DNA of 64,000 bases from the NCBI RefSeq assembly GCF_018614075.1, contig NZ_JAGGOZ010000021.1, positions 1 to 64,000 on the forward strand. Reading direction: 5' to 3'. Below, piece by piece: positions 3,484 to 36,313 of the stretch. Made by a program: the position numbers and the translations under genes. This DNA comes from Streptomyces sp. ISL-94. Its GTDB lineage: Bacteria; Actinomycetota; Actinomycetes; Streptomycetales; Streptomycetaceae. Every line of letters starts with the position of its first letter. The stretch's first letter is position 1. Below the pieces are notes generated by a model. That model did no database searches. It saw nothing but the letters and a program-made list of their open reading frames with translations, and was not told where the DNA came from.

Positions 3484-4551
3484 TTACGTGCGGCGACGTG
3501 CAGCGGGGTCGCGTTCGGCGACGTGCCGGGCGACCGAGTCGACGCCGGGGCGGGCGTACCGCTCCAGGGAGCGGACGGAGGCGTGGCGGGAGCGGGCCAG
3601 CAGCATCGGGGTAGAGGTGCCGCCCTCGGCGTCGTGCGTCAGGGCGCTGTGCCGGAGCCGGTGAAGTGTCCAACCGTCCAGGTCCTCGATGTCCTCGGGT
3701 GAGGCGAGCGGGTTGGCGAGCAGCCGGGTGTTCTCCTCGAAGATCTCCTCAGCGCGGCGGTAGGAGAGCCGGGCCCGGCCGGTCTCCGAGCACACGTCCA
3801 ATGTCGGTGTTCCGGCGGGGGCCTTGCGGTCGGTGAGGAACAGCGGGCCCCGGGTGCGGCGGGCGATGAGGCGGGGCAGGAGCTGGGCGGTGCCGGACTG
3901 CCAGTGAATCCACTCCGTCGCCCCGCCCTTGGCGGTGATCCTGCCGCGCTTGTCCTGCGGATACAGGTCTTCCACGTTCAGGCACAGCACCTCGTCGGCC
4001 CTGGCCGCCGACTCGTAGAGCATCTTCCACTGCGTCTTCTCCCGGAGCCCGACGTCCAGGCGCCACAGGGCGGCGATCTGGTTCTCGGCCAGGGCTTTGG
4101 TGCGGTCCGGTGGTGCCGGCCGCCGCTCGATGCCGATCGTCGGGTCACCGTCGATCCAGCCCTGGCGCTGCCACCAGCCGATCGCCTTGCGCGCGATGGA
4201 CAGTTCGCGGTTGACGGTGTCGGCGTCCATCTCGTCCGCCCGCGCCGCCGCCAGCTCGGCCAGCACTTCGGGCAGCGCCGGGTCGTCGATCGCGGCGACA
4301 GGGAAGACGGGGGGCTTCGCGCCCCGGCGGGCGGGTCCGGTCGGCGCGGGTTCGCCGGTGAGCATCCATCCCCACGTCGTGAGCGAGATCCGGTAGATCC
4401 GCGCGGAGGACTTCGCGATGCCCGCGCCGGTGAGGTACCGGTCGACCGCCGCGGTGTACGACGCGGGAGGGGCAGACAGCGGTACGACCCGGGCGCGCGG
4501 CAGCCGGAGCGTGCCCCCGCTTCCGAATTCGGTCACTGGTTCGATCGTCAT
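3484..4551 (-). CDS. Transposon-encoded tyrosine recombinase (TnpI-like)
   Basis: A 355-aa tyrosine site-specific recombinase. Catalytic residues are recognisable: first Arg in ESAARADEVLCL (about 183), beta-hairpin Lys in TAKGGATEW, the HRLRH box (His about 296), His in SRHASVRSLERYARP, and the nucleophilic Tyr in ERYARP (about 331). The N-terminal 120 residues form the SAM-like core-binding domain. ATG at 4551 is chosen because GGCGGGG lies just upstream; longer frames to 4671 run through the repeat motifs. Lying inside a Tn3 element beside repeated CTGCCGCAGTAAAT motifs, it should resolve cointegrates, the job done by a serine resolvase in classical Tn3. Function is inferred from family and position. 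Confidence 0.88.
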   Translation of the reverse strand: MTIEPVTEFGSGGTLRLPRARVVPLSAPPASYTAAVDRYLTGAGIAKSSARIYRISLTTWGWMLTGEPAPTGPARRGAKPPVFPVAAIDDPALPEVLAELAAARADEMDADTVNRELSIARKAIGWWQRQGWIDGDPTIGIERRPAPPDRTKALAENQIAALWRLDVGLREKTQWKMLYESAARADEVLCLNVEDLYPQDKRGRITAKGGATEWIHWQSGTAQLLPRLIARRTRGPLFLTDRKAPAGTPTLDVCSETGRARLSYRRAEEIFEENTRLLANPLASPEDIEDLDGWTLHRLRHSALTHDAEGGTSTPMLLARSRHASVRSLERYARPGVDSVARHVAERDPAARRRT

Positions 4552-4572
4552 CCCCGCCCCGCCCTTCTGGCA

Positions 4573-4680
4573 CTGCCGCAGTAAATGCGTACACCTCGCC
4601 CCGGCGGCCAAAATCGTCCGCCGCAGGTCGCGGTGATCACGGTAGGGGCTCTGCCGCAGTAAATCCGGCATTTACCGCGA
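4573..4680. promoter_or_regulatory. Candidate internal resolution site of the transposon
   Basis: The motif GCAGTAAAT occurs at 4578-4586 and 4656-4664, the latter facing an inverted ATTTACCGC at 4670-4678 across a 5-bp gap; the wider repeat CTGCCGCAGTAAAT is at 4573-4586 and 4651-4664. An inverted core pair plus an upstream direct repeat next to the recombinase gene is the layout of tyrosine-recombinase resolution sites (two core arms plus accessory repeats). The core overlaps the last codons of the MFS gene. It may double as the recombinase promoter region. Confidence 0.6.
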
Positions 4681-7460: not shown

Positions 7461-10400
7461 TCAAGCGGCCTGACCGAGTCCGGCGGCGGTCAGGTCCTGC
7501 TCGCGCAGCGGGGTGAAGTCGACGTCGAGCTTCGGGTCGTACGCGTCCGGCTGGATGCCGAGCTCGTGCGTGGAGTACTCGCCGAACCGGTTGATGTGCT
7601 CGGTCAGGTACGGCGAGATGTGCGCCAGGTCCTCCGGATCGATCTCCCAGCCCTCCTCCAGCAACTGACGGACGATCTCCGCAATGTCCAGGGCATTGTG
7701 GAAGATCACCGCGTTCGTGAGCAGCGCGTTGAACTTCATCGCCTTCTCCTGCTCGATCGGGTCGTTGTCCGCGATGACGCCGCGGTTGCCGAAGCCGATC
7801 CACTGGGAGAACCGGTTGAACGACTCCACCTTGTTGGTCGCCGCCGTCACCCGCCGGCGCAGCGGCGCGTCCGACAGATACCGAAGGAGCTGGACGGTGC
7901 GGATCACGCGGCCGACCTCGCGGAAAGCGGCGTACGTGGCGTTCTTCCTCGACCCGGAGCGCAGCCGCTTGAGCAGCGTGGAGGAGGAGATGGCGCCCTC
8001 GCGCACGGAGACCGCCACGCGCATCAGGTGGCGGAACTGGGACTCGATCAGGTCGAAGTCGATGACGTGCTTGCCCGGCTCCCCGAAGAGGGCGTCGATG
8101 TGCACGTACTCCGTCTGCTTGGAGGGCCGGTAGAAGGTCAGTTCCTTCCAGTTCCTGATCCTGGGCATCAAGTCGAAGCCCAGCAGGTGGGCGAGCGCAA
8201 AGACAGGGAAACTCTGGCCTTGGGTATCCGCGTGCACCGTGGTCGGCTGCACCTCGCTGGTGTTCTTCAGCAGGCCCTCGATGATGTAGACGGCCTCCCA
8301 GACACCGCACGGGATGAAGTGCGTGAACAGCGCGATGTAGGTGTCCGAGACGTGGTGGTAGGCGATGCCGCCGGGCTTGCCGTACCGAACGCTCGTCTCG
8401 GAGAGCAGGTTGTCGAGGTAGGTGTCCATGTGGGTGCCGTCCGCCGCCACGGCGGTGCCGTCGCCCCATGCCTGCGAGATGTCCAGGCGGGCGTGCGCGT
8501 TGACCAGGTCGGCGACCGCCTCGTTCAGCAGCACGATTGAGAAGTGCTTGTTGGCGACGTACGACAGCTCGTGCCCGGACACGCCGGGGATGTGCCGGGC
8601 GGCTTCGTAGGGGCCCATGTTGGTGCCCTTGACGAACGTGACGATCACGTAGCGGCCCAAGGGGTCGGTGAGCTTGGGCTCGTTGCCGGACGGCGGGCCG
8701 AAGCGGCGCCACCACTCCACCCAGTACGCGGTCCGGGCCGCGATCCCCATCAGAGAACGCTCCGGCATCCTCGCCTTGATCTCCTGCTCCAGCCGCTTCG
8801 CCGAAGGCCGCTGACCATCAGCCCTGAACGCCTTCAGCGACGGGATACCCGTCTCCGCATCGATGACCAGGCCCTCGTTCTCCGGGTACCCGGCGTCCGC
8901 CGCCGCGGCGGCGCCTCGCAGCTTGTCCTCCAGCTGCCGGCGGAAGAACTTCGCGTCGAACTCGGCGCTCTCGCCCGGCTCGCACAGGCCGACCTCCACC
9001 AGGTAGGACCCCAGCGTCTCCTGGACGACCTCCCAGTTCAGCAGCTGCTCGGACCAGTCGGCGTACTCCTCCGAGCCGACCACCGCGACGTCGCCGGTAC
9101 GCAGCTCCTCGGCGAGTGCGGTGAAGACCATCGCCTCGAAGTGCTTGCGGACGAACTGCCCGGTCCGGGTCTTGTCGATCACGGCCTTGCGCCAGTTCTG
9201 GGTCGCGAAGGAGATGTCGACCTCCTTGCCCTCCTCGTTGAAGGCGGTGATGTACTCGCCGCGGGCCGCCTGGTGCCGCTGGGCGTGCGCGAGCGCGTCC
9301 AGCACCCGGCTGTCCTCGCTGGTCGCGGTGAACTGAAGGTTCTCGGCGTCGGCCAAGTCGAACATCACTGCCCGGTCCCGGCCGATCTGCCCGTACAGCA
9401 GCACTTCCCAGAAGTTGCCGTGGTGGGCGGAGACCTTCTCGATCTGCTCGTACTGCTTGGCGAATCCGCCGAAGCCCTCCACCGCCCGCGTGACCGCGCC
9501 GAGCCCGCTGGCCTGCACCATCTGGGCCTTCACCAGGGCGAGGACTGCCGGGGAAACCCGGCCCTCCAGCCGCTTCGCGACCTCGTCCACCGACGCCTCC
9601 TCGTCCAGGCCCTCCAGCGCCTGACGGGCCTCGGCGGTCATGGCCGCGGCCTTCTCCAGCGCCTCCTGTGCCGGGCCGCCCTCGTCGATGTGCTTGAGCA
9701 CGGTGCGGTAGTTCCCGATCAGGGCCTCGACGATCTCCCGCTCGGCGAGCCGGATGTCCTCCAGCTCCGCCTTGGCCTTCTTGATCTTCGTCGCCACGCG
9801 CTTGCAGAACATCGTCGCGAGGTCGTCCCGCACCCGCATCCGCGCCTTGTGCGTCAGGGCCGCGACCAGCGCAATGCGTTTGACGGGGGCGAAGTCCCGC
9901 AGCTCCGAGGCATCCGCCGCGTCCGCCTCCCCGGCAAAGTCGGTGATCTTCCCTGCGGCGACACCGTCCATCCACACATCGGTGTCGCCGAGACCGTCCA
10001 GCCATTCCAGACGCTTGGTCAGGTTCTTGAAGTGCGACCAGGTCGGGCCCTTGGCGGGCTTCTTCAGCCGGTTGAACAGCGTCGTCCCGTCGCTGTCGCG
10101 CTCCTCCAGCAGCCGCATGAGCCCCGCCCGCTGAGCGGCGCTCATGCGGTCATGGATGCCCGCGCGGATCGAGGCGTTCACCTCGGTACGGATCTTCGCG
10201 GCCATCTTGTCGAAGGTGGAGAACCCCGGCAGCTCCAGCCCGGCCTCCACCACCTTCTCCAGCGCGATGTTGATCAGATCCGCCGGGCGGTTCTTCGCCG
10301 CGGCCTCCTTGCGGATCGACTGCTCGACGATTCCCCGGGCCCTGGCCTGGTCGTACGTCACGCCGACCTGCTTGCGGACCAGGCCACGGTGGTGCTTGGC

Positions 10401-10682
10401 GGTCCGCTCCGCCCGGTACACCGGCAGCGTGTCCTCCGGCAGCTCCACCGCCCGCCGCACGAAGTCCACCACCATCACCGGGACGTCCTCCAGTGCCGGG
10501 AAACACCCCATGCGCCGGTACGACTTCAGCATCAGCAGCAGGGCCAGCAGATGCTCATCGCAGTCTGTGGCGTCGGCCGCCCACTCCAGCTCATCGCGAG
10601 TCGGCGAGAAGAACAGATGCAGCTCGTGCGCGGTGATCAGCCGCTTGAACCGCGGATACGCGGTCCGTTCGATCGATGTCAC
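7461..10682 (-). CDS. tnpA: Tn3-family transposase
   Basis: A 1073-aa Tn3-type DDE transposase, the expected size. The N-terminal DUF4158-like part (SIERTAYPRFKRLITAHELHLFF) is followed by the large catalytic domain. The catalytic triad is visible: Asp in QAWGDGTAVAADG (about 740), Asp in TVHADTQGQSFPVF (about 818) and Glu in NKVESFNRFSQWIGFGNRG (about 952). GTG at 10682 is chosen because TGAGGTGGG lies just upstream and the family start is normally (M)TSIERTAYPRFK. The gene reads inwards from the right terminal repeat. No frameshift is seen. Confidence 0.95.
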   Translation of the reverse strand: MTSIERTAYPRFKRLITAHELHLFFSPTRDELEWAADATDCDEHLLALLLMLKSYRRMGCFPALEDVPVMVVDFVRRAVELPEDTLPVYRAERTAKHHRGLVRKQVGVTYDQARARGIVEQSIRKEAAAKNRPADLINIALEKVVEAGLELPGFSTFDKMAAKIRTEVNASIRAGIHDRMSAAQRAGLMRLLEERDSDGTTLFNRLKKPAKGPTWSHFKNLTKRLEWLDGLGDTDVWMDGVAAGKITDFAGEADAADASELRDFAPVKRIALVAALTHKARMRVRDDLATMFCKRVATKIKKAKAELEDIRLAEREIVEALIGNYRTVLKHIDEGGPAQEALEKAAAMTAEARQALEGLDEEASVDEVAKRLEGRVSPAVLALVKAQMVQASGLGAVTRAVEGFGGFAKQYEQIEKVSAHHGNFWEVLLYGQIGRDRAVMFDLADAENLQFTATSEDSRVLDALAHAQRHQAARGEYITAFNEEGKEVDISFATQNWRKAVIDKTRTGQFVRKHFEAMVFTALAEELRTGDVAVVGSEEYADWSEQLLNWEVVQETLGSYLVEVGLCEPGESAEFDAKFFRRQLEDKLRGAAAAADAGYPENEGLVIDAETGIPSLKAFRADGQRPSAKRLEQEIKARMPERSLMGIAARTAYWVEWWRRFGPPSGNEPKLTDPLGRYVIVTFVKGTNMGPYEAARHIPGVSGHELSYVANKHFSIVLLNEAVADLVNAHARLDISQAWGDGTAVAADGTHMDTYLDNLLSETSVRYGKPGGIAYHHVSDTYIALFTHFIPCGVWEAVYIIEGLLKNTSEVQPTTVHADTQGQSFPVFALAHLLGFDLMPRIRNWKELTFYRPSKQTEYVHIDALFGEPGKHVIDFDLIESQFRHLMRVAVSVREGAISSSTLLKRLRSGSRKNATYAAFREVGRVIRTVQLLRYLSDAPLRRRVTAATNKVESFNRFSQWIGFGNRGVIADNDPIEQEKAMKFNALLTNAVIFHNALDIAEIVRQLLEEGWEIDPEDLAHISPYLTEHINRFGEYSTHELGIQPDAYDPKLDVDFTPLREQDLTAAGLGQAA

Positions 10683-10759
10683 AACCCACCTCAGGCCCCA
10701 GACGACGCTCAACATCCCCACCAACGACACTGAGCCGAATGGGTGACGGGGGAGGGCGC

Positions 10760-18001: not shown

Positions 18002-19012
18002 TTAGCTGCGGGCCTTCGCGTTCGGATGGGGTTGGGCCTGGAGCCGTTCGCGGAGGTCGATCTCCTCGGGGGTGAGAGGGTCGTCTGGCCGGCGGATGCG
18101 GACGGGCTTGGGCCTGAGAGGCAGGCCGTCGTCCGCCGCAGCGGCTTCGGCTTCCGCGAGGGCGCGGTAGAGCGAGGCGACGGACGGGGACCTGCCCGCG
18201 TTCTTGCCGACCTTGATGGTGAGCTTCTTCGCGATCTCGGGGACGGGGACGCCCTTGTCCTTCAGCGCGACGGCGAAGGTGAGCATGTCGTCGTCGATGA
18301 CCTTCGGGCGTCCGCCGTGGTTGCCCTTGGACGCGGCGATGACCTGGCCCTCCAGGGTCTTCTCCCGGATGTAGTTGCGCTCGATCTGCCCGGCGACGGC
18401 GAGCACGGCGAAGAACAGGGCGCCCATGCCGTGGGGGTCGTAAATCCCGGTGAGCGGGCCGGTGAGGAGTTCGAGCTGGATGCCGCCGGCCTGGAGCTCG
18501 GCGGACAGCGTCATCAGCTCGGCGGCGTTGCGGGCGAGGCGCTTGAGTTCGTGGACGGTGAAGATGACCGGTGTTTCGGGGGCGGCCTCCTTGAACTGGT
18601 GGGCCAGTGCGAGGGCTTTCTCCAGCTCGGGCCGGACCTTGATGCGGGTGCTGATCTGCTCGGAGAAGACCTTGTGGCACTCCGCCCGGCGGAGGGCTTC
18701 GAGCTGGCTCGCCAGCTCCTGGCGGGCGGTCGACGTCCTCGCGTACCCGATCCGGACGGGCCGCTCGGTGCGGGGCGCGGGCACGGCGGCGAGCGCCGGG
18801 CCCAGCTTCCACGCGCGGCCGGGGCGCCGGTCGGCGGGGACGGGGATCTCCAGTTCCTCGCGGAGCGCGGGGACGAGGACGAAGCGGGGGGTGTGGTACT
18901 TCGCGGCGGTCTTCCCGCCCCGGGTGCGGCAGGCGCTGCCAGCGGGCGCGTCACAGTTCGGGCAGTCGTGACGTTCTACCGCTAATGCGGCCTGATCGTG
19001 CGTGAGGTCCAT
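18002..19012 (-). CDS. Serine recombinase (resolvase/invertase family) with N-terminal zinc motif
   Basis: A 336-aa serine recombinase. Residues 1-45 carry a Cys17-Cys20-Cys28-His40 zinc motif (CPNCDAPAGSACRTRGGK, KYHTPR) seen on actinobacterial mobile-element proteins. The catalytic domain starts at RIGYARTSTARQELASQL (Ser about 93), with FTVHELKRLARNAAEL, FFAVLAVAGQIERNYIREKT and a C-terminal HTH (GGRPKVIDDDMLTFAVALKDKG...SVASLYRAL). It is of resolvase rather than large-integrase length apart from its N-terminal extension. It could resolve or invert a nearby element. An intact reading frame, unlike the truncated homologue at 19336. Confidence 0.88.
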   Translation of the reverse strand: MDLTHDQAALAVERHDCPNCDAPAGSACRTRGGKTAAKYHTPRFVLVPALREELEIPVPADRRPGRAWKLGPALAAVPAPRTERPVRIGYARTSTARQELASQLEALRRAECHKVFSEQISTRIKVRPELEKALALAHQFKEAAPETPVIFTVHELKRLARNAAELMTLSAELQAGGIQLELLTGPLTGIYDPHGMGALFFAVLAVAGQIERNYIREKTLEGQVIAASKGNHGGRPKVIDDDMLTFAVALKDKGVPVPEIAKKLTIKVGKNAGRSPSVASLYRALAEAEAAAADDGLPLRPKPVRIRRPDDPLTPEEIDLRERLQAQPHPNAKARS

Positions 19013-25424: not shown

Positions 25425-26519
25425 TCACAGGCCGATGCCCTGGCTGGCGGTTTCCTCCCATCGGGCGCCCTTGCGTACGTACTCCCAGAAGACGGCGCTG
25501 GAAGGACTGTGGCCCGACTGGCGGCGCAGCTGGTCGGGGCGTTTGCCGTTGCGGGCGCCGGTGGTGATGAAGCCGGAGCGCATGGAGTGCCCGGTGACCT
25601 TCACCTCGAGGCCGGCGCGGCGGCCGCTGCGGGTGATGGCCAGGCGGCAGCCGTCGGGGGAGAGCCGGCCCGTGCCGAGGTGGCCCCAGCGGTCGACGGC
25701 GCGGAAGGCGGGGCCGCTGTCGCCGAGTCCGGCCGCCTCGGCGGCGCCTTTCCAGGCGAGCCAGTTCAGGACGGGGCAGGAGTCGGGGTGCGCGCCCCAG
25801 GCGATCTCGACGTCGCGGGCGGGGCGCCCCTTGACCGAGGGGACGTGCACCTCCAGGCCCTCCTCGACGAGCACGATGTCGGCCAGGGTGAGGGCGCTGA
25901 CCTCCTCGGCGCGGCCGGCGATCCCGAACGCCAGCGTGACCAGCGCGCGGTCGCGGTAGACGGCCAGGTCGGGAAGGCCCTCCGTAGGGCCTGCGCTGTT
26001 CATCGCCCGCAGCTGCGCCGGGCTCGCCGGGGCGGCCTGGCCGCGGCCGCGGGCCCGGCGCAGGCGGTCGTTCTTCAGCGGCTTGAGCGCGGTGCGGGCG
26101 GCGAGGGTGGCCTCCTTGGGCACCTCGACGCCATAGGGCGGGCGCCGCGCGGTGGTGGTGACGCCGGTGATGCGGCGGTCGATGCTGTTGGGCGCCGCCT
26201 CCTTCACCTCGTCCAGCCACGCCACGAACGCCACCAGAGTGCCCCTGTCGACGGCCGTCACCGGCAGCGGGACACCGGTGCGCTCGGCAAGCCAGCCGTG
26301 GAACTCCTCCCACAGCGCCCAGTCCCGGGCATACCCGACCCTGGTCTTGCGCGGCCGAACCGCGTCCAAATGCTCCTGCGCACCCCGGTCGAGAGCGTGG
26401 AGTACGGCGGCCACAGCAGGGTCGTACGCCGTGACGCCGGATCCGGCGGCCTGCTGTGGAACGGTCTCGACGAGCTCCGCGTCGATGACGCCTCGGGTGT
26501 GCACGATTTCGCTCGTCAT
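25425..26519 (-). CDS. Tyrosine recombinase/integrase
   Basis: A 364-aa phage-type integrase. The N-terminal SAM-like domain (TRVGYARDWALWEEFHGWLAERTG) is followed by the catalytic domain: Arg in FGIAGRAEEVSALTLADI, basic residues in VPSVKGRPARDVEI, the box HSMRSGFITTG, RRQSGHSPSSAVFWEYVRKG with the nucleophilic Tyr in EYVRKG. It is the last gene of a three-gene operon with ATGA overlaps (26516-26519) and a perfect 14-8-14 palindrome 58 bp upstream of the first gene, which could be its target or its operator. ATG at 26519; longer frames are spurious. Probably integrates or excises the element or a cassette. Confidence 0.9.
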   Translation of the reverse strand: MTSEIVHTRGVIDAELVETVPQQAAGSGVTAYDPAVAAVLHALDRGAQEHLDAVRPRKTRVGYARDWALWEEFHGWLAERTGVPLPVTAVDRGTLVAFVAWLDEVKEAAPNSIDRRITGVTTTARRPPYGVEVPKEATLAARTALKPLKNDRLRRARGRGQAAPASPAQLRAMNSAGPTEGLPDLAVYRDRALVTLAFGIAGRAEEVSALTLADIVLVEEGLEVHVPSVKGRPARDVEIAWGAHPDSCPVLNWLAWKGAAEAAGLGDSGPAFRAVDRWGHLGTGRLSPDGCRLAITRSGRRAGLEVKVTGHSMRSGFITTGARNGKRPDQLRRQSGHSPSSAVFWEYVRKGARWEETASQGIGL

Positions 26520-26992
26520 GGCCGCTCCGCCCGTAGGGCAATGGCGAGTTCGGCGCAGGTACGGTCGTAATATGTCTCCCGGGCGGCGTCCCTGAAGTCC
26601 ACCATGCGCCACCGCACTTCGTCGTATCCCTCACTTCCCTGCCACGGGCGGACAAGGGCGCAGAGGTCGTCCCAGGACTGATGGATCACGTCACGACGCC
26701 GTTCTTCCGCAGCGCGCAGCTGCTCCTCGGTCCACACGGGGGGCGACAGCGTGGCGGGGCGGATCGGGTGGGGCTTCCGGGTGGGACGAAGGATCTCCGT
26801 GTCGAGGCGCAGCACCAGCGTGGCCAGCGCCTCAGCGAGTGCCTCCGCGATGCGGTGCTGCTCCGATCCGGCGTCATGCGTGGACAGGAGTGCGTCCAGG
26901 CGCGGCATCACGAACTCGTAGACCGCCCAGGCGTCGTCCGCGGTGATGTCCGTGGCATAGCGCGGAGCGCTCTCGAGGCGGCCGCCCGTCAC
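26516..26992 (-). CDS. Integrase-operon protein of unknown function
   Basis: A 158-aa, largely helical, charged protein (ITADDAWAVYEFVMPRLDAL, QHRIAEALAEALATLVLRLD, WDDLCALVRPWQGSEGYDEV). No family recognised and no membrane segment. ATGA overlaps on both sides tie it to the 53-aa protein upstream and the integrase downstream, suggesting an accessory or regulatory role in recombination. Confidence 0.75.
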   Translation of the reverse strand: MTGGRLESAPRYATDITADDAWAVYEFVMPRLDALLSTHDAGSEQHRIAEALAEALATLVLRLDTEILRPTRKPHPIRPATLSPPVWTEEQLRAAEERRRDVIHQSWDDLCALVRPWQGSEGYDEVRWRMVDFRDAARETYYDRTCAELAIALRAERP

Positions 26993-27150
26993 CGGGTGGC
27001 CTCACGACGCTGCTGTTCGTCGCTTCCCCGGGCAGCGCCCGCTGCACGAGCGACCCTCACTTTGAGGAACGCCTCGAGGCGCTCGACATCGGCGGCCGTG
27101 ATGTCCTTCGCGTGCACCAGGGCGTGATCGGCAACAGGGTCGGTGCTCAT
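26989..27150 (-). CDS. 53-aa first gene of the integrase operon
   Basis: A short protein with one clear helix-rich part (KDITAADVERLEAFLKVRVA) and a basic tail. ATG at 27150; the stop overlaps the next start by ATGA. It could be a small regulator or excisionase-like factor, but no DNA-binding motif is convincing. Confidence 0.6.
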   Translation of the reverse strand: MSTDPVADHALVHAKDITAADVERLEAFLKVRVARAAGAARGSDEQQRREATR

Positions 27151-27207
27151 GACTCGGTCGTGGCCTCCGGATCGGGCGGCCGGCCGTGACCATCCGTCAC
27201 ACCGGGG

Positions 27208-27243
27208 CATCACCTCGGATATGGCATCTTATCCGAGGTGATG
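27208..27243. promoter_or_regulatory. Perfect 14-8-14 palindrome upstream of the integrase operon
   Basis: CATCACCTCGGATA (27208-27221), spacer TGGCATCT (27222-27229), TATCCGAGGTGATG (27230-27243). The arms are exact inverted repeats. This is the geometry of a simple tyrosine-recombinase core site (loxP has 13-8-13), and it lies 58 bp upstream of the integrase operon. It could instead be an operator. The spacer is asymmetric, as needed for directional recombination. Confidence 0.7.
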
Positions 27244-27622: not shown

Positions 27623-28065
27623 GGTCACCGGGCCAGTCGGAGGGTTGGGTGCCGCTGGGGTTGCCGTACGGGTCGGTTTTGCGCGGGCTATCGCCTGGCC
27701 TTGCGCCTGATCGACGCTGGCCGGGGCGGTGTTGTAGGTGGTCAGTTACCGGATGCCCGGACAACCCGTGAGGGTCCTTTTCACGGCCATCAGACGCGCC
27801 GGCGGCACACCACCGGCCGGGGACCGAGGCGAGTAGTCATGGAGCCGTCACCCAAAGACCCCCCTCCCGAGGGATGGGCTGTTCGCTGCCCTCACTGAGG
27901 GTCGGCCGACACGAGGTACCCGCCGACCCTCGTAGAGCCGTCGGGTCCGAATTAGCCCCCCCTTGGAGCGCCACAATCATCACTCCATCCCGAAGGATGG
28001 CGACATCATCCGTGACTCCAGCCTCGTCTTGAACGTGACTGATGGAGAACATTTTCCGGAAAACA
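27623..28065. other. Intergenic stretch downstream of the RHS operon
   Basis: No gene recognised. It contains a 10-bp stem hairpin (27897-27931) and grades into AT-richer sequence before the RHS-operon terminator. Confidence 0.4.
27897..27931. terminator. Hairpin, possible terminator
   Basis: GAGGGTCGGC (27897-27906) pairs with GCCGACCCTC (27922-27931) around a 15-nt loop. No clear T tract on either strand, so function is uncertain. Confidence 0.4.
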
Positions 28066-28104
28066 CGAATCGGTCGTCACCAGTACCCGGTGACGACCGA
28101 TTCG
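28066..28104 (-). terminator. Rho-independent terminator of the RHS-immunity operon
   Basis: A perfect 16-bp stem, CGAATCGGTCGTCACC (28066-28081) with its inverse (28089-28104), and a 7-nt loop. On the minus strand it is followed by GTGTTTTCC, a T-rich tract, and lies about 150 bp downstream of the immunity gene. Confidence 0.8.
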
Positions 28105-28256
28105 TCGATTGTGGTGCATCGCAGAAATCTTCCGGCCAGCGAAGCCAGGCCCGTTCGGAGTAGATCCGCCCAGGCGCTTGCCCGGACCGACGGAGTCCTA
28201 CCAGCCACTCCGCGAGCGACGTCAAATCACACGAATCTCGCTCGCACTACGAGCCC

Positions 28257-28694
28257 TTAGCTGATTCTTTCTGGATTCAGCCCAAGCAGGAGCCGCTCGA
28301 ACGCTTCTGGCACCTTACCGAAGCTGGCTACCCACGTTTCAATGAGATAGACCGTACCAGCCTCGTCAATACCAAGAAAGAATCGACCCGAATCAAGGTG
28401 ACCGACAGGGAAGAAGGGAATGCCAAGTTCCTCACCCCATTCAATGAATCGATCCTCCTCTCCGTCGCACAAGTCTGGATCAAGTTCGAACGGCTCGCGC
28501 GCGCGCTCGATACCTGGACCCGAAAAGACGAACTTAAGCCCACCAAATTCCGCCAGAAACTCCCGTGCAGCATCGTGCGCCCGGAGCCCTACAGATTCGA
28601 ATCGTGAAGTCCATCCCGTGGTCCCCACCGACCTTCCCGGAAACCAACCCGACGCATAGAGCTCCTCCTCCACATCACTCGAAAATCTAGTCAT
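28257..28694 (-). CDS. SUKH-3 family immunity protein
   Basis: A 145-aa protein that fits the SUKH (SMI1/KNR4) superfamily, SUKH-3 type: FSSDVEEELYASGWFPGRSV, AAREFLAEFGGLKF, GIPFFPVGHLDSGRFFLGID and the terminal TVYLIETWVASFGKVPEAFERLL. SUKH proteins are the commonest immunity proteins of polymorphic toxins and are known next to deaminase-type toxin domains. ATG at 28694 overlaps the last codons of the RHS gene by 8 nt, so the two are translationally coupled, as expected of toxin and immunity. It should bind the RHS C-terminal domain in the cytoplasm. Confidence 0.88.
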   Translation of the reverse strand: MTRFSSDVEEELYASGWFPGRSVGTTGWTSRFESVGLRAHDAAREFLAEFGGLKFVFSGPGIERAREPFELDPDLCDGEEDRFIEWGEELGIPFFPVGHLDSGRFFLGIDEAGTVYLIETWVASFGKVPEAFERLLLGLNPERIS

Positions 28695-31600
28695 CCAACC
28701 CTCCGGCAGTCGTGAAGTCCAGATCGAACCCGTCTTCAAAGGCAACACAACTATCACACGGGCCGACCCGACTGCCATGCTTCGGATGGGTTAGCTGATT
28801 TCGCACCCTGACAGCAGCCACTCGCGCTCCCGTCGGGTCATGCCCATCTGTCAGCGCCTCCGAGAGGCAGATAGCCAAACCACACATACCATGTGCGCTT
28901 CCCCGCTCAAGGTCAGGCACAGCATCGAGCATCTCATGGATGAAGGGATGGAGTTCAGGCGCCTCTCCGGTTTTATTCGGACTGCTGTACATCCTGCCAT
29001 TGGGCAGCTCCAGCGCCTCCGCTACGGAAGGGCGGCTTCTTGAAGAGAAGCTCTTATTGTTCGTCGTAGCAACCGCCTCACCACGTGCTACATCAAGGAC
29101 CTTTCCATCCTCCCTGGGGCTGTCCTTGAATCCGCCTGCCGAACTGTCTGGCTCAGCAGACTTGGGCGTGCCCGTACCGGGCGCACTCGGCGTCGCCTCG
29201 TCAGGGGTGGCGTGGGGGGCTGCTTTGGCCGGGGGAGGTTCCGGATGGTCGCTCTTGAGGAGGTTCTTGGCTGCGTCGAAGGCTTCGCGGATGCCGCCGG
29301 CTGCTCTGACGAGTCGGTATCCCTTGACGAGACCCATGCCAAGGCCGATGCCGTCGACGAAGGCGGAGGCGACGAGGCCTCCTATATATCCTCCAATGTA
29401 GGCGGGAGAGGATTGGTCGACACCGAAGAGCTCGGCGGTAGGCGCGCTACCCCACAGATTGGGTACGCGGTCTTCGTCGGCCGGCCCCTCGTAGCCCGTC
29501 CATCCATTCCAGGTTTCGTTGTCACCGTTGTAGACATCGGTGAGCTTGTTGAGCGCCCACCCGCCGGGGTTAAGCAGAGGGCCAAAAAAGTCGCCGCTGA
29601 ATCCACCGAAGACGGCGTCGAGTATGCCGGACAGGCCTGCGCCGATGTCGCTCCAGCTCAAGAGCCCGGACGGGTCGCTCATGTTGACCGGGTCGTTGCT
29701 GGCGTAGGCGTAGCCCCCCATCTGGTTGGGGTCGCCGGCTTCGAAGATGGGGTCAACTGTCAGAAACCGTCCTAGGGCCGCGTCGTAGTGGCGGGCGCCA
29801 AGGAGGTTGAGGCCGCTGGTGGTGTCGACGGGTTGGCCGAGGTAGCCGCGGTTGTCGGCCCACTTGGGCGGTGCGGTGCCGCGGGGTGCGCCGTAGGGGT
29901 CGAAGGCGCGACGTGTGACGGTGAGCGTCGTGGCATCGATCTGGAGCTGAGAAGTGTTCTGGCGCGTCGTGGGCTGGTAGGTGACCGTCCCGTTGGACGA
30001 GCGGGTGATGCGAGTGCCGTCGGGGTTGGTGAAGTGACGCAGGCCGCTGACGGTGTTCGTCGACTTGGTGAGGGCCAGCTGCTCTGCGCCGGAGAACAGG
30101 TACAGGACATCGCTGTCGGGCGATCGCTGAAGGAGCAGAGCACCGTCGGCGTCGTACAAGTAGTCCGCGGTCTGGGTACCGCCACCGGGCTTGGATGTAG
30201 TAACGCTCTGGGTGCGGCCCTGGGCGTTGTAGGTGAAGGTCTGGGTCGTCGCCGCCGCGGCGCCGACCTTGGTGTCGCGGCTGGTGGTATTGCCGGCCGG
30301 GTCGTAGTGCGGGGTGAGGCTGGTTGTCCCGTCCGGTCCCGTGGTGGTGATGGATGTGGCGGTGTTGGGCTGGGCGGCGGGAGTCGTGCCGTTGCCCGGG
30401 TAGACGCTGTTCTGGGTGACGTTCTTGAGCGCGTTGCCGCCGGTGTCGTGCTTGACCTGCTGCGTACGGTCACCCAGCCGGTTGTACGTGAAGGACTGCC
30501 AGTACGGGCTGGGGCCACCGATCGTCGACGGGGACGGCTTGCGGGTGTTGCATCGGGAGAGCTGCCCGGCTGTCGCTGCGGCAAGGCCCTTCGTGTCCGT
30601 CCAGGCTTGGGCCAGGCGGTTCTGTCCGTCGTAGAGGAAGCACTGGGTGTCGGTGCCAGTGACCGTGCCGCCGCTGGACTGAACGGTGCTCGCGCCAGTG
30701 AGGTTGCCTGCCTCGTCGTAGGCGTACGTGGTGGCGTCGATCGGGGAGGTGCTGGTCGTCTGCAGACTGGTTGTCGCGGTGGCCAGTCTGCCGGTCGCCT
30801 CGTCATATGTCTGCGCTGTACGCAGCTGCTTGCCATAGACACCGTAGGTGGACTGGATGATCTGGCCGAGCGGGGTGTAAATGGCCTTGTTCAGATATGG
30901 CGTGGTTGCGGTTCCGGTCTGCGTCAGCTGGCCTTGCAGGTTGTAGCCGTAGCCGATGGTTTCGGCTGGGAGACCGCCATCAGCTCCATAGGTGGTAGAG
31001 GCCAGGAGGCCGACCTCGGGGGTGTATTGAGCGGTTGCCTTGTAAGTGCCGGCGAGCTTGCCTTCCTCTGCCGGGATGATCGTCGTCGTTCCGGTGGCCT
31101 GGTAGGCGGTCGTATAGCCGTTGATCTTCTTGGTGTAGGCACGGCCGTTCGATCCGCCGACGAACCGCGTGGAGGAAGTGGGGTAGCCCTTGGCGAGGGT
31201 GTCGTACGTCCACTCCGCAAGCTTCTTGCTCTGGTCGGTGGTGCTCGTGCCCTCGTACTCTCCGGACTTACGCCCCAGGTTGTCGTAGGTGTAGGAGAGA
31301 CTCTTGCCCAGGGAGTCCGTGACAAGGGTCTGGCGGCCGAACAGGTCGTAGGCGTAGGTGCTGAGCCCGGTGTCGGGGTCGGTTTGCGAGGTCTTCTGGC
31401 CCAGCAGGTCGTATGCGTACGTCCACTTGTTGCCGACCGTGTCGCTGACGGAATCAACGTCGCCGGCGGGGGTGTAGGTGTAAGTGGTCGTCGTATCCGC
31501 CGCGGTGGCCTTGCCAGCTGTGCCGGAGGTCCAGATGCTGGTGCCCGCTGCGTTGTACATCTGCAGGGTGGCGTCGGCCTTGACCATGGCGTAGGCACCC

Positions 31601-34600
31601 GTCGAACCCGCCGTGCCGCTGCCCGAGGACCACAGGACCGTCCCCGTCGTGCTGATGACGGCCAGGCTGCCGTCCGCCCGCACGCTGCCGGTTGCGCCGG
31701 GGTTGCCTGCAGTGCCGGAGGCCCAGAGCACCTTGTTGTTGGCGATTCCGGTCAGGACGAGGTTGCCGTCTGCCTGCATGTTCAGCTGCACGCTGCGGGA
31801 GGCGACGCTGGTCCCGGAGAGGATCGCGGTGCCTGCGGTCAGCTTCTGGTCCGCAGTGGTGTCCCGGGTCTGGCTTGACGTCGTCTGGCCGAGCGCGTTG
31901 GTGTACGTCGTGGTGGCCTGGCCACCCTTGGGCGGCTGCGTGGAGGTCTTGTCCGCGCCGGAGTAGGTAGTGGTCGACTGCCAGAGTTGGGCGCCCTTCG
32001 ACCACTGCTGGGTGGCCGTGACCCGGCCCAGGCCGTCGTAGACCTGCCTGGTCTGGGACGGGACGGTGGTCTCCGTCTCGACCCACATGGTGGTGCCGGG
32101 GTCGGTCGTCGGGTCGGCGTAAGCGGCGATGCTGGAGACGGTCCAGCCGTGGCTGTCGTACGACGTCGAGGCGATCAGGCGACCCGCGGAGTTGTTCGCG
32201 GTCGTCGTCTGCTGCTGGCGGACCTGGAGCATGCCGTCGTAGATGGTGACGGACTTGCCGTAGCTCCCGTCCTCACGGAGAGTCTCGGTGGTCACCGTAG
32301 GCGGATTGGGGCTGTCGCCCGCAGTATTCACGGCGTACGTGAACTTACGGTCCGGTGACTGTGTGCCCTTGTCCCGGCCCGGAGTCCACACCTGGGTGCG
32401 TCGACCGAGCGCGTCATACGTGCTCTCGGTGACGCGGTTGTTGGCGTCGACGGTCCGCTTGTTCAGACCGCGGGTGGGTGCCAGGTCGGAGGTGGAGGTC
32501 CAGCCGAACGGCTGGGGATAGGTCGTGGTGACCTTTGTGGGCAGCGTGTCCGTGGCGGGTGAGTACGTCGTGGTGGTGGCGTTCGACAATGCGTCGAGCT
32601 GCTTGGTGACACGGCCGTAGCCGTCATAGGTGAGGGCGCCGTTGGTCTGGAAGACCGGCTTGCCGGCTCCGTCGTACTTGGTGGCGACTTGGACGGCGGT
32701 CGTGTAGCCGCGGGAGTGCGTTTTGCCGTCAGAGGCCCATTCCTGTCCCAGCTTGCCGTAGGTGCCGGGGCTGCTGACGGAGCCGTCCCCGTCGTAGAAG
32801 AAACGCTTGTGGCTCAGCGTCGTGCTGGGGCCGGGAGTGGTCGTGCAGGGGCCGGCTACTGCGATGGTCTCGCTCGGGTAGCTGAGCATCATCGGGTTGT
32901 CCGAGGGCGCGGACGCGTAGCTGGCAGTGGTGCAGTTCTCCTGGGCCGGCTGGTCTACATCACCCTTCTCGTTGATCTGGTAGGGACGGCCGAGGCTGTC
33001 ATACGTGGTGACGTTCTTCGTCGTGCGCCACTTGCCGGTGGACAGCAGGTTCGACGAGCGGTTGGTGACCTCGTTGACCCTCCGCGCTGTCAGATCCGGA
33101 AGGGTGGAGAGCTTTGCCGGTGCCGGTTCCTTCGACGTCCACGCCGTGCGCGAGCTGCTTGTCGTCACCGTGGAGGAAAGCGGACCGTTGAGGGTCTTGG
33201 AAGTGACCGTTCCGTCGGCCTTGGTGTTGACCTGGGTCTCCAGCAAGGAGCCTGCCAGCCAGCTCTCGTCCGGCGTGGACTCCCCCAGGGAGTTCGCTAC
33301 GGAGACCGAACGCTTGGTGCCGTCCGCCTTGTAGTCGCCGTCCATGCCCTGTAGGTACGTCGACATCGTCTGCGTGACGGGATCGGGCGCCGCACCGGAT
33401 GTCGTGGTGACCGTGCGGTATCCCCGGAAGCTGTTCCAAGTCCGGTACTGGTCGTCGGTGAGCTCCGAGTCGTCACGGTGCCAGGCCGCGCCGCCGCCGT
33501 ATGCGGTCTTGGTGACCTTGGCGGGGGAGCCCGCCTTGGTGAGGTCGCTGTTCACGACCTCGGTGACCAGAGTCTTGACGAACCAGTCTTCTACGGGTGT
33601 GGCTGCGCCCGACGGGTACCAGTAGGCCGGGTAGCAGGCCATGGTGTTGGTGTCTGCCGAGACCGGCATAGTGCCCTTGACTCGCGAGCATTCCGGGTCC
33701 TGGTACTTGACGGAGACGGACTCTCCCATCTCCGTCCGGATGCTTGAGATCCGGGGGTGGTACAGCGGTGGCGCCCCAGGGGTGAGCCCGTCGACGCGGT
33801 TGTCCATCTCGATGCCGGTGAACGTCACCGGTTCCAGGGAGATCGCCCCGGTACCCCCTGCGGTCGTGTCCAGGCCGGTGTGCTGGATGGAGGACAGCCA
33901 CATGATGGACTGGAGGAGTCCGGCGTTCTTCGGGTCGACGGTCTTGCCGGTGACGGGGTCGATGACTCCGCCCGCGTCGGAGAAGACGTGAGTGAGGGTG
34001 TACCGGTCGACATCCTGCCAGCGTGTATCGACCTTGACCTGGGTGGTGATGTCCTTGAGGCGGTACGTGGACCAGAACGTGGGTGAGCCGGCCTTGCAGA
34101 CGTCGTCGCCCTCGCCCTTTGTCTTATAGGTGGACGGGCAGTTGATGTCGTACGGAACGTCCGGCCAGTTGCTCGCCGTGTCCGACTTCAGGTTGTCGGG
34201 CTTACAGACGGCATCGGACGTCGTGCACCGCTGCCTGGTGTCGAAGTTGATCCGCGCTGCCGGATCCTTGCCAGCGGCAGCGTCTGCGAGCTTGTAGCCG
34301 TATGAGATGCGCGTGAGGTAGCCCGAGCGGGTGTACTGGGTCAGGGTGCCGCCTTCACCGTCCTTGGCGACCTGGCCGTACCCCATGTTGTAGTAGTTCG
34401 TCTCGGTGGCGTAGTCGTACCGCTGGACGTTGCCGCTCGGGTCCACGACGAAGTCGAGGTTGAATCGGTAGCCGAGCTGCTTGTCACACTGGGACGCGTC
34501 GCCCTTGGCCGAGCTGTAGCAGGGGTCGCCGGACTTCGGGTGGTAGACCGGGATGCCCCAGGCGCTGTTGGTCGCGGCGTCAGAAGGTGTACCAGGGGTG

Positions 34601-35991
34601 TGATTGAGACCCAGGTAGTAGGCGGTGCCGTCCGTCGTCGTGACCTTGAAGTGCTCTCCCTCCCACAGCCCGTTCGTTGCGCCGGTCAAGCGCTCGATCT
34701 TCGTGCCGTCGTCGGATTCCAGGTGGTAGACACCGTCACTGGCCCGCACCAGCTGCCCGGTATGTGCGCCAAGCGACAGAGTGGCATTGAAGCCGGCCCA
34801 GCACTGGTCACCCGAGTCTTCTATCCCGGCCTGCTTGCACGGCTTGTACGAGCGCTCGATGAAGCCCGGTGAGTAGCCCCAGCCGTCACCGATCCACGAG
34901 GACTGTGAGTTGCGCGCTGAGGTCTTGCCGTCGATGGACTGCGAGTCGTAGCCGAGGGCCACCGACGGCCCCTTGCCGCCGAGCGACGGCGGGACCGCGA
35001 TCGGATAGCTGTAGGTGAAAGAGCCGGAGGCCGATTGGGTCCACGACCCCGAGGTGGACAGCGAGGTCGCCGCGTAGTCGCCCTGCGAGCCGCCCGTGTC
35101 CGACACCGCCGCGACGGCGGTCGACTGGGTCGCCGCCGCCGCAGTCATCAGCGGGGTCGTCGAACCAGACAGGACCGCGTCCTTGAACCGGGGTGTGCTG
35201 TTGGGCATGTCGACGTTGGCGGTGAGCCGCTGGGACGTCGGGTCGTTGACCGTCTGCAAGGGGGTCTGAACCCGGCAGGCGGCAACCGACGGGGTGGTGA
35301 GTGCACAGCCGGGCATGGACACGAGGTGCAGGCGGGATGCCCACCCGCCGCCATAGGCGTTCGCCAGCGTGCTGTAGTCGAGGCCTACGGACAGCCGGCC
35401 TCCGGTGGCTTTCCCGTCGGAAGACGCCACACCGACGAGCAGGCCGTTGACATTGGCCGATGCAGCCTGCTGCCGACTCGCCGTCTGTACCCGGACCGTG
35501 GCCGGCCCATCGGCTGCAGGGGCGTTCTGTGCGCCGACGGTGGACCGTGACGAGCCCGGTGGCGCGGCAGGCGTGGCCGCCGCTATCCATACCGGCGATT
35601 TCCCGGCCCGGACCGGCGTGACCGGCGCCAGGGCAGCACTGTCTGAGAGGAGCGCGGCACCGGATGCCGCCTTGGCGGTCTGACCAACCGTGACTGTTGC
35701 CGTGCTCGCCGTCGGCCACTTGGGAGCCTTGGGGACGTGGGCACGCAGCTCACGCGCCCCCTGTGGCGTACGCGGGGCGGGTGGCTTGGCAGAGCCCTTG
35801 GCCGGATGCCCCTTCACCACAGGCATATCCGGCAGTGCGCCATCCGCCCAGGATTTGCCCGTGTACTTGTACCCGACCATCACGTCGGCATTGGCCAACG
35901 GCACGACGAGCGACATTGCTGCCGTCATCACCGTGACGAGCAGGGCCCGACGTCTCCAACCCCTAACAGGCATACCGACGGATCTGCGCAT
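28687..35991 (-). CDS. Giant secreted RHS/YD-repeat polymorphic toxin with deaminase-like C-terminus
   Basis: A 2434-aa protein. The N-terminus is a signal peptide (MRRSVGMPVRGWRRRALLVT, cleavage near LANADV). A SpvB-like beta region (residues about 340-480) is followed by many YD repeats (YDSHGWTVSS, YDNLGRKSGEYEG). A bulb-lectin-like segment is inserted at about 1375-1500 (QLNMQADGNLVLTG, VLWASGTAG, VLWSSGSGT). The RHS core ends at ASNDPVNMSDPSGL (about 2109). A variable C-terminus carries a YwqJ-deaminase-like domain (AHGMCGLA, about 2366; VGPCDSC, about 2411). ATG at 35991 is chosen because AAGGTG lies nearby; GTG 36003 is an alternative. The SUKH-3 gene overlaps its end. It is divergent from a giant lectin gene. 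Likely a contact-dependent toxin; target unknown. Confidence 0.92.
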   Translation of the reverse strand: MRRSVGMPVRGWRRRALLVTVMTAAMSLVVPLANADVMVGYKYTGKSWADGALPDMPVVKGHPAKGSAKPPAPRTPQGARELRAHVPKAPKWPTASTATVTVGQTAKAASGAALLSDSAALAPVTPVRAGKSPVWIAAATPAAPPGSSRSTVGAQNAPAADGPATVRVQTASRQQAASANVNGLLVGVASSDGKATGGRLSVGLDYSTLANAYGGGWASRLHLVSMPGCALTTPSVAACRVQTPLQTVNDPTSQRLTANVDMPNSTPRFKDAVLSGSTTPLMTAAAATQSTAVAAVSDTGGSQGDYAATSLSTSGSWTQSASGSFTYSYPIAVPPSLGGKGPSVALGYDSQSIDGKTSARNSQSSWIGDGWGYSPGFIERSYKPCKQAGIEDSGDQCWAGFNATLSLGAHTGQLVRASDGVYHLESDDGTKIERLTGATNGLWEGEHFKVTTTDGTAYYLGLNHTPGTPSDAATNSAWGIPVYHPKSGDPCYSSAKGDASQCDKQLGYRFNLDFVVDPSGNVQRYDYATETNYYNMGYGQVAKDGEGGTLTQYTRSGYLTRISYGYKLADAAAGKDPAARINFDTRQRCTTSDAVCKPDNLKSDTASNWPDVPYDINCPSTYKTKGEGDDVCKAGSPTFWSTYRLKDITTQVKVDTRWQDVDRYTLTHVFSDAGGVIDPVTGKTVDPKNAGLLQSIMWLSSIQHTGLDTTAGGTGAISLEPVTFTGIEMDNRVDGLTPGAPPLYHPRISSIRTEMGESVSVKYQDPECSRVKGTMPVSADTNTMACYPAYWYPSGAATPVEDWFVKTLVTEVVNSDLTKAGSPAKVTKTAYGGGAAWHRDDSELTDDQYRTWNSFRGYRTVTTTSGAAPDPVTQTMSTYLQGMDGDYKADGTKRSVSVANSLGESTPDESWLAGSLLETQVNTKADGTVTSKTLNGPLSSTVTTSSSRTAWTSKEPAPAKLSTLPDLTARRVNEVTNRSSNLLSTGKWRTTKNVTTYDSLGRPYQINEKGDVDQPAQENCTTASYASAPSDNPMMLSYPSETIAVAGPCTTTPGPSTTLSHKRFFYDGDGSVSSPGTYGKLGQEWASDGKTHSRGYTTAVQVATKYDGAGKPVFQTNGALTYDGYGRVTKQLDALSNATTTTYSPATDTLPTKVTTTYPQPFGWTSTSDLAPTRGLNKRTVDANNRVTESTYDALGRRTQVWTPGRDKGTQSPDRKFTYAVNTAGDSPNPPTVTTETLREDGSYGKSVTIYDGMLQVRQQQTTTANNSAGRLIASTSYDSHGWTVSSIAAYADPTTDPGTTMWVETETTVPSQTRQVYDGLGRVTATQQWSKGAQLWQSTTTYSGADKTSTQPPKGGQATTTYTNALGQTTSSQTRDTTADQKLTAGTAILSGTSVASRSVQLNMQADGNLVLTGIANNKVLWASGTAGNPGATGSVRADGSLAVISTTGTVLWSSGSGTAGSTGAYAMVKADATLQMYNAAGTSIWTSGTAGKATAADTTTTYTYTPAGDVDSVSDTVGNKWTYAYDLLGQKTSQTDPDTGLSTYAYDLFGRQTLVTDSLGKSLSYTYDNLGRKSGEYEGTSTTDQSKKLAEWTYDTLAKGYPTSSTRFVGGSNGRAYTKKINGYTTAYQATGTTTIIPAEEGKLAGTYKATAQYTPEVGLLASTTYGADGGLPAETIGYGYNLQGQLTQTGTATTPYLNKAIYTPLGQIIQSTYGVYGKQLRTAQTYDEATGRLATATTSLQTTSTSPIDATTYAYDEAGNLTGASTVQSSGGTVTGTDTQCFLYDGQNRLAQAWTDTKGLAAATAGQLSRCNTRKPSPSTIGGPSPYWQSFTYNRLGDRTQQVKHDTGGNALKNVTQNSVYPGNGTTPAAQPNTATSITTTGPDGTTSLTPHYDPAGNTTSRDTKVGAAAATTQTFTYNAQGRTQSVTTSKPGGGTQTADYLYDADGALLLQRSPDSDVLYLFSGAEQLALTKSTNTVSGLRHFTNPDGTRITRSSNGTVTYQPTTRQNTSQLQIDATTLTVTRRAFDPYGAPRGTAPPKWADNRGYLGQPVDTTSGLNLLGARHYDAALGRFLTVDPIFEAGDPNQMGGYAYASNDPVNMSDPSGLLSWSDIGAGLSGILDAVFGGFSGDFFGPLLNPGGWALNKLTDVYNGDNETWNGWTGYEGPADEDRVPNLWGSAPTAELFGVDQSSPAYIGGYIGGLVASAFVDGIGLGMGLVKGYRLVRAAGGIREAFDAAKNLLKSDHPEPPPAKAAPHATPDEATPSAPGTGTPKSAEPDSSAGGFKDSPREDGKVLDVARGEAVATTNNKSFSSRSRPSVAEALELPNGRMYSSPNKTGEAPELHPFIHEMLDAVPDLERGSAHGMCGLAICLSEALTDGHDPTGARVAAVRVRNQLTHPKHGSRVGPCDSCVAFEDGFDLDFTTAGGLDD

Positions 35992-36313
35992 TGATGAACG
36001 CACCTTGACAGTCCCCACCCCAAGTGCGCGGCCCGGTGAGGGCCGAAAAGAAACGGCCTGTGACCAGCGCCGCTAGATCAACGGAACCGTATTGCCACAA
36101 CAGTGCGAACCGCAATAGCCTCTTCGCGAATCAGCCCCAACCTTTTGGCGCATGTGTCCCAATAACACCCAGTCAAGGGCTGGCCGATTCGACTCAAGAA
36201 AACCGGAATGAAATATTCAACTGCGGGCAGTGTTGTAAATCTTTGCCGTTCTCGTTCGCACATTGGCTGGATGACGACATCCAGCAGGAGCGCCATGTGG
36301 GGGGATACCACGT
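35992..36313. other. Divergent promoter region of RHS and lectin genes
   Basis: About 320 bp, clearly AT-richer than the flanking genes (for example near ATGAAATATTCAACTGC). It must hold both promoters, but no -10/-35 pair is convincing. GGGGGGATACC lies upstream of the lectin ATG as its ribosome-binding site. Confidence 0.5.

Follow-up and report, generated by a model that had tools for sequence, protein, structure and literature searches.

A conserved palindrome at the head of an MrpA-like recombinase operon on a Streptomyces plasmid contig: a putative core site for multimer resolution

Introduction

The tyrosine recombinase MrpA of the Streptomyces coelicolor plasmid SCP2 is reported to resolve plasmid multimers (Warth et al. 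2011, as cited in PMC3218068). In the SCP2 sequence (AL645771), an imperfect 14-8-14 inverted repeat, TCTGGCTCTTGATA-ACGTTCCT-TCTCTAGAGCCAGA, with 12 of the 14 arm positions paired, lies 17 bp before the mrpA start codon. As SCP2 contains about five palindromes of that grade, it is the position of this one that carries the argument and not its rarity. The locus presented here was found in a stretch of 64,000 nucleotides from Streptomyces sp. ISL-94, hereafter the window. It resembles the SCP2 locus in its homologous, plasmid-borne tyrosine recombinase with a partition gene nearby, and in a 14-8-14 inverted repeat with inner GATA directly upstream of the gene or operon. The two loci differ in their arm sequences, which are unlike, in the perfect pairing of the window palindrome, and in the presence in the window of two additional genes that separate the site from the recombinase.

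More remote parallels exist. The loxP site has a 13-8-13 arrangement, and the Cre/loxP system of phage P1 is similar to the window in function only, with an asymmetric spacer, a single site and the resolution of plasmid dimers. The site sequence is unrelated, the arrangement in the window is 14-8-14, and no Cre chain is present among the PDB matches of the window recombinase up to E 1. In dif, inner arms of the ATAA...TTAT kind surround a short spacer. XerCD/dif shares with the window such inner arms, a short spacer and dimer resolution, but the window has a single dedicated recombinase encoded in the operon and a spacer of 8 bp. The TnpI/IRS system of Tn4430 is also built from a tyrosine recombinase and an inverted-repeat core that precedes the recombinase gene itself, but it resolves transposon cointegrates. 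To our knowledge, few multimer-resolution systems have been characterised on Streptomyces plasmids. The pair described here would be an additional case of the SCP2 MrpA type, and provides a concrete recombinase and putative site, together with a family-wide site pattern, for Streptomyces plasmids.

The palindrome and its operon

A first-pass annotation, made from the letters of the window, had pointed out an exact palindrome with an asymmetric 8-bp spacer before an integrase operon, and the sequence bears this out. Positions 27208-27243 read CATCACCTCGGATA-TGGCATCT-TATCCGAGGTGATG, and 58 bp separate the palindrome from the start codon of the operon's first gene (ATG at 27150). The features of the locus are the following.

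27208-27243, minus strand: perfect 14-8-14 inverted repeat of 36 bp, conserved in relatives; putative mrpS-like recombinase core site
27217-27234, minus strand: conserved core GGATAAGATGCCATATCC (in the direction of the operon), family pattern GATAANRTGCSATATC
27222-27229, minus strand: asymmetric 8-bp spacer AGATGCCA, putative overlap (strand-exchange) region, family pattern ANRTGCSA
27187-27199, minus strand: motif TGACGGATGGTCA (TGAC-N5-GTCA) downstream of the core, possible accessory element
26989-27150, minus strand: 53-aa open reading frame, first gene of the operon
26516-26992, minus strand: 158-aa protein, second gene of the operon
25425-26519, minus strand (stop codon 25425-25427): 364-aa tyrosine recombinase, homologue of SCP2 MrpA

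The 364-aa recombinase matches Pfam PF00589 with an E-value of 9e-7, and MrpA at 31.5% over 330 aa (E 1e-23). The catalytic residues R203, K230, H311, R314, H337 and Y347 are all present and are invariant across 10 aligned homologues. The protein scores far below the cut-offs of the XerC model (18.6 bits versus 335) and of the XerA model (28 bits versus 220). Its predicted structure is poor, with a mean pLDDT of 39. The family search gave no match for the 53-aa open reading frame. The family of the 158-aa protein, which has no Pfam match, recurs directly after the site in four other loci (L025, L049, L079 and L082) and is a possible accessory factor.

In 60 simulated windows generated with a first-order Markov model, no exact inverted repeat with arms of 14 bp and a spacer of 0-12 arose. 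The real window contains several such long palindromes, mostly terminator-like, so that palindromicity alone proves little, and conservation is the special feature of the one at 27208-27243.

The contig to which the window belongs is 111,348 bp long. It is a plasmid as judged from its gene content, which includes the following.

87087-88247: ParA
85891-87090: ParB
68353-72249: TrwC/MobF relaxase

Conservation of the core

Homologues of the recombinase are encoded in 19 of 296 genomes of the genus. The core GATAANRTGCSATATC is found in 13 of the 296, with one copy each, and every time a tyrosine recombinase gene follows downstream on that contig and strand. Eleven of these 13 genomes are those with a full or near full-length recombinase gene of the MrpA-like clade, the gene of G188 having an internal stop. 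In the remaining two, G141 and G198, the gene that starts roughly 0.6 kb downstream of the core on the same strand encodes a tyrosine recombinase from a different family. The core is absent from G066, G115 and G218, where the genes of the clade are fragmentary. The association of recombinase and site gives a Fisher p of about 2e-18, in a test that disregards kinship and treats fragmentary genes as missing. In the closest relative, L087 (84% identical), where the upstream DNA is partly masked, the site was not seen.

Many Streptomyces plasmids also encode homologues. Identity reaches 52% or more in 18 plasmids, several of which are close relatives of one another. Every one of the 18 has the core upstream of the recombinase and on the same strand, and the distance between core and recombinase ranges from 26 to 5358 bp. 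Across most of the plasmid clade, the core is succeeded some 15-20 bp further downstream by CGGACATGAC-N5-GTC(A), with TGACGGATGGTCA as its counterpart in the window; this element is also present at one site belonging to a recombinase with 33% identity. More distant recombinases encoded on Streptomyces replicons are directly preceded by palindromes of their own, again with GATAA/TATC as inner arms. One plasmid that encodes two recombinases contains two sites, one for each recombinase and of the type that goes with it. The first-pass annotation had named absence of the palindrome from homologous integrase operons as a refuting observation, and this check leaves its proposal standing.

Covariation of the arms

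The arms read GGATAA...ATATCC in the plasmid clade, and GATAA...ATATC, mostly with C/G outside, in its sister clade. Part of this second clade is chromosomal, and CGATAACATGCCATATCG or a near variant is found upstream in 13 of its 13 loci examined. The arms covary between clades, with GGATA/TATCC in one and CGATA/TATCG in the other, and the position just outside the pattern is paired in 88% of cases versus 46% expected. In 32 distinct sites, the spacer is always of 8 bp and never palindromic (ANRTGCSA), and the inner arm GATA/TATC is invariant, although the search pattern itself fixes the spacer length and partly the spacer bases and inner arms; the symmetry of the arms continues further out. 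This outward symmetry and the covariation agree with the 14-8-14 partition proposed initially.

An absence of the site from the chromosomal sister clade had been considered and was rejected, as the strict pattern GGATAA...ATATCC missed the CGATAA...ATATCG version. Another palindrome, AGCGCATAACGTTCCCTTATGCGCT, is present near the recombinase at 8 of 13 sister-clade loci (for example L026, L030, L088, L089, L094 and L095). Its left half is conserved and its right half variable. Seven of the genomes searched have it, each as a single copy.

A putative site for multimer resolution

That the palindrome is the recombinase's own recognition site, as the first-pass annotation had suggested, is well supported by comparative sequence analysis, since the core precedes the operons of homologous recombinases and does not occur in any sampled genome where a recombinase gene close by is lacking. 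It is likely that the MrpA-like recombinase uses it as cognate core site to resolve multimers, and probably also for autoregulation. The plasmid location and the characterised relative MrpA, neither of them noticed in the first-pass annotation, point to multimer resolution. Two recombinase protomers would bind the 14-bp arms, one on each, and strand exchange would take place inside the asymmetric 8-bp spacer. A monomeric plasmid would carry one site, and replication or homologous recombination would produce dimers or multimers with directly repeated sites. Recombination between these would restore monomers, which could then be partitioned by ParAB. As the site heads the recombinase operon, the bound recombinase would probably adjust the transcription of its own operon too, a role that is compatible with recombination.

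The 136,312-bp sequence CP109196.1 is a head-to-tail repeat of a 68-kb plasmid; the offset is about 68,155 bp, and the operon is present twice as a direct repeat (L119 and L120). It may be a true dimer or an assembly artefact, and it illustrates the substrate needed by the multimer-resolution model. The chromosomal members of the sister clade count against multimer resolution, as Streptomyces chromosomes are linear and offer no obvious use for it. The proposed role is also weakened by the plasmids with an orphan core listed below, by the site not seen at L087 and by the three genomes with fragmentary genes and no core.

If functional, the pair would be a candidate Cre/lox-like tool for high-GC actinomycetes, available in several sequence-distinct versions. 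The putative function would also imply that annotated 'integrases' on such plasmids can be maintenance enzymes.

The palindrome could instead be an operator only, to which the recombinase or, for example, the 158-aa protein binds for the control of transcription, strand exchange occurring elsewhere. The constant location of the site would suit an operator, as the core heads the operon, in line with it, even in relatives where the operon reaches 5 kb and its gene content is altered. So would the sequence TANNNT within many cores, and TACAAT shortly downstream at some sister-clade loci. However, the site tracks the recombinase and not the 158-aa gene, which is present in few operons only, and identical inner arms recur in the palindromes of recombinases without mutual blastp similarity. 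Moreover, a simple dimer operator would not need a conserved asymmetric spacer, and the search for a sigma-70-like promoter at the window palindrome gave none. A purely regulatory role is therefore regarded as rather unlikely.

The presence of the core next to different recombinases raises the idea of a portable site shared by two families without mutual blastp similarity, perhaps acting jointly in the manner of XerC/XerD. The families in question are the MrpA-like clade and the one found in G141 and G198 and near orphan plasmid sites. About seven plasmids have the core without a recombinase of the MrpA-like clade: CP109469 (beside parAB), CP102515, CP108547, CP109060, CP109265, CP108525, and CP086103, where the orphan core is a blast match only. 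For several of the orphan cores, a recombinase from a different family, with a palindrome of its own, is encoded 1-4 kb away. Such sharing is given little credence.

That the recombinase integrates a mobile element at the palindrome, which would then be an att site, is very improbable. Relatives are annotated as integrases, and sequence conservation is higher on the operon side of the core than on the opposite side. Against this, there is one copy per genome, and no copy marking a second boundary was found. The first-pass annotation had noted the lack of a second copy of the palindrome in the window, which holds; the 18-bp core has no second copy in the 7,366,137-base genome either, with up to 3 mismatches allowed, and the genus genomes that have the core hold one copy each. 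An empty version is also missing, as no core was found without a nearby recombinase gene in the 296 genus genomes, and the window contains no tRNA; tRNA neighbours offered nothing useful elsewhere either.

The loxP-like architecture had further suggested that recombination moves or switches the operon. This found no support and has hardly any probability left: each replicon has one copy without copies at boundaries, in cis or genome-wide, and the cores of all relatives have a single orientation. Both an att pair and an operon switch were rejected on copy number. A transcription terminator or a chance palindrome is just as hard to credit, despite the other palindromes of similar length in the window, given the position 58 bp upstream of a start codon, the lack of a terminator-like call, and the conservation of sequence and spacing across diverged plasmids.

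Other features of the contig and of related loci

A second tyrosine recombinase is encoded in the window at 3484-4671 (minus strand), and no GATAA-type palindrome was found upstream of it. The plasmid contig also encodes a Tn3-family transposase (window 7461-10730, minus strand) and a serine resolvase with a zinc-finger domain (window 18002-19012, minus strand). The contig G000:C65 (L077) ends in CTCTTATAAACATCT, which resembles a remnant of a sequencing adapter, and this end may be artificial. The minus strand of the window also encodes an RHS-repeat polymorphic toxin with a YwqJ-like deaminase C-terminus (28687-36018), followed by the gene of a SUKH-3 immunity protein (28257-28778). A perfect 17-7-17 inverted repeat, ACGAATCGGTCGTCACC-AGTACCC-GGTGACGACCGATTCGT, occupies a terminator-like position at 28065-28105.
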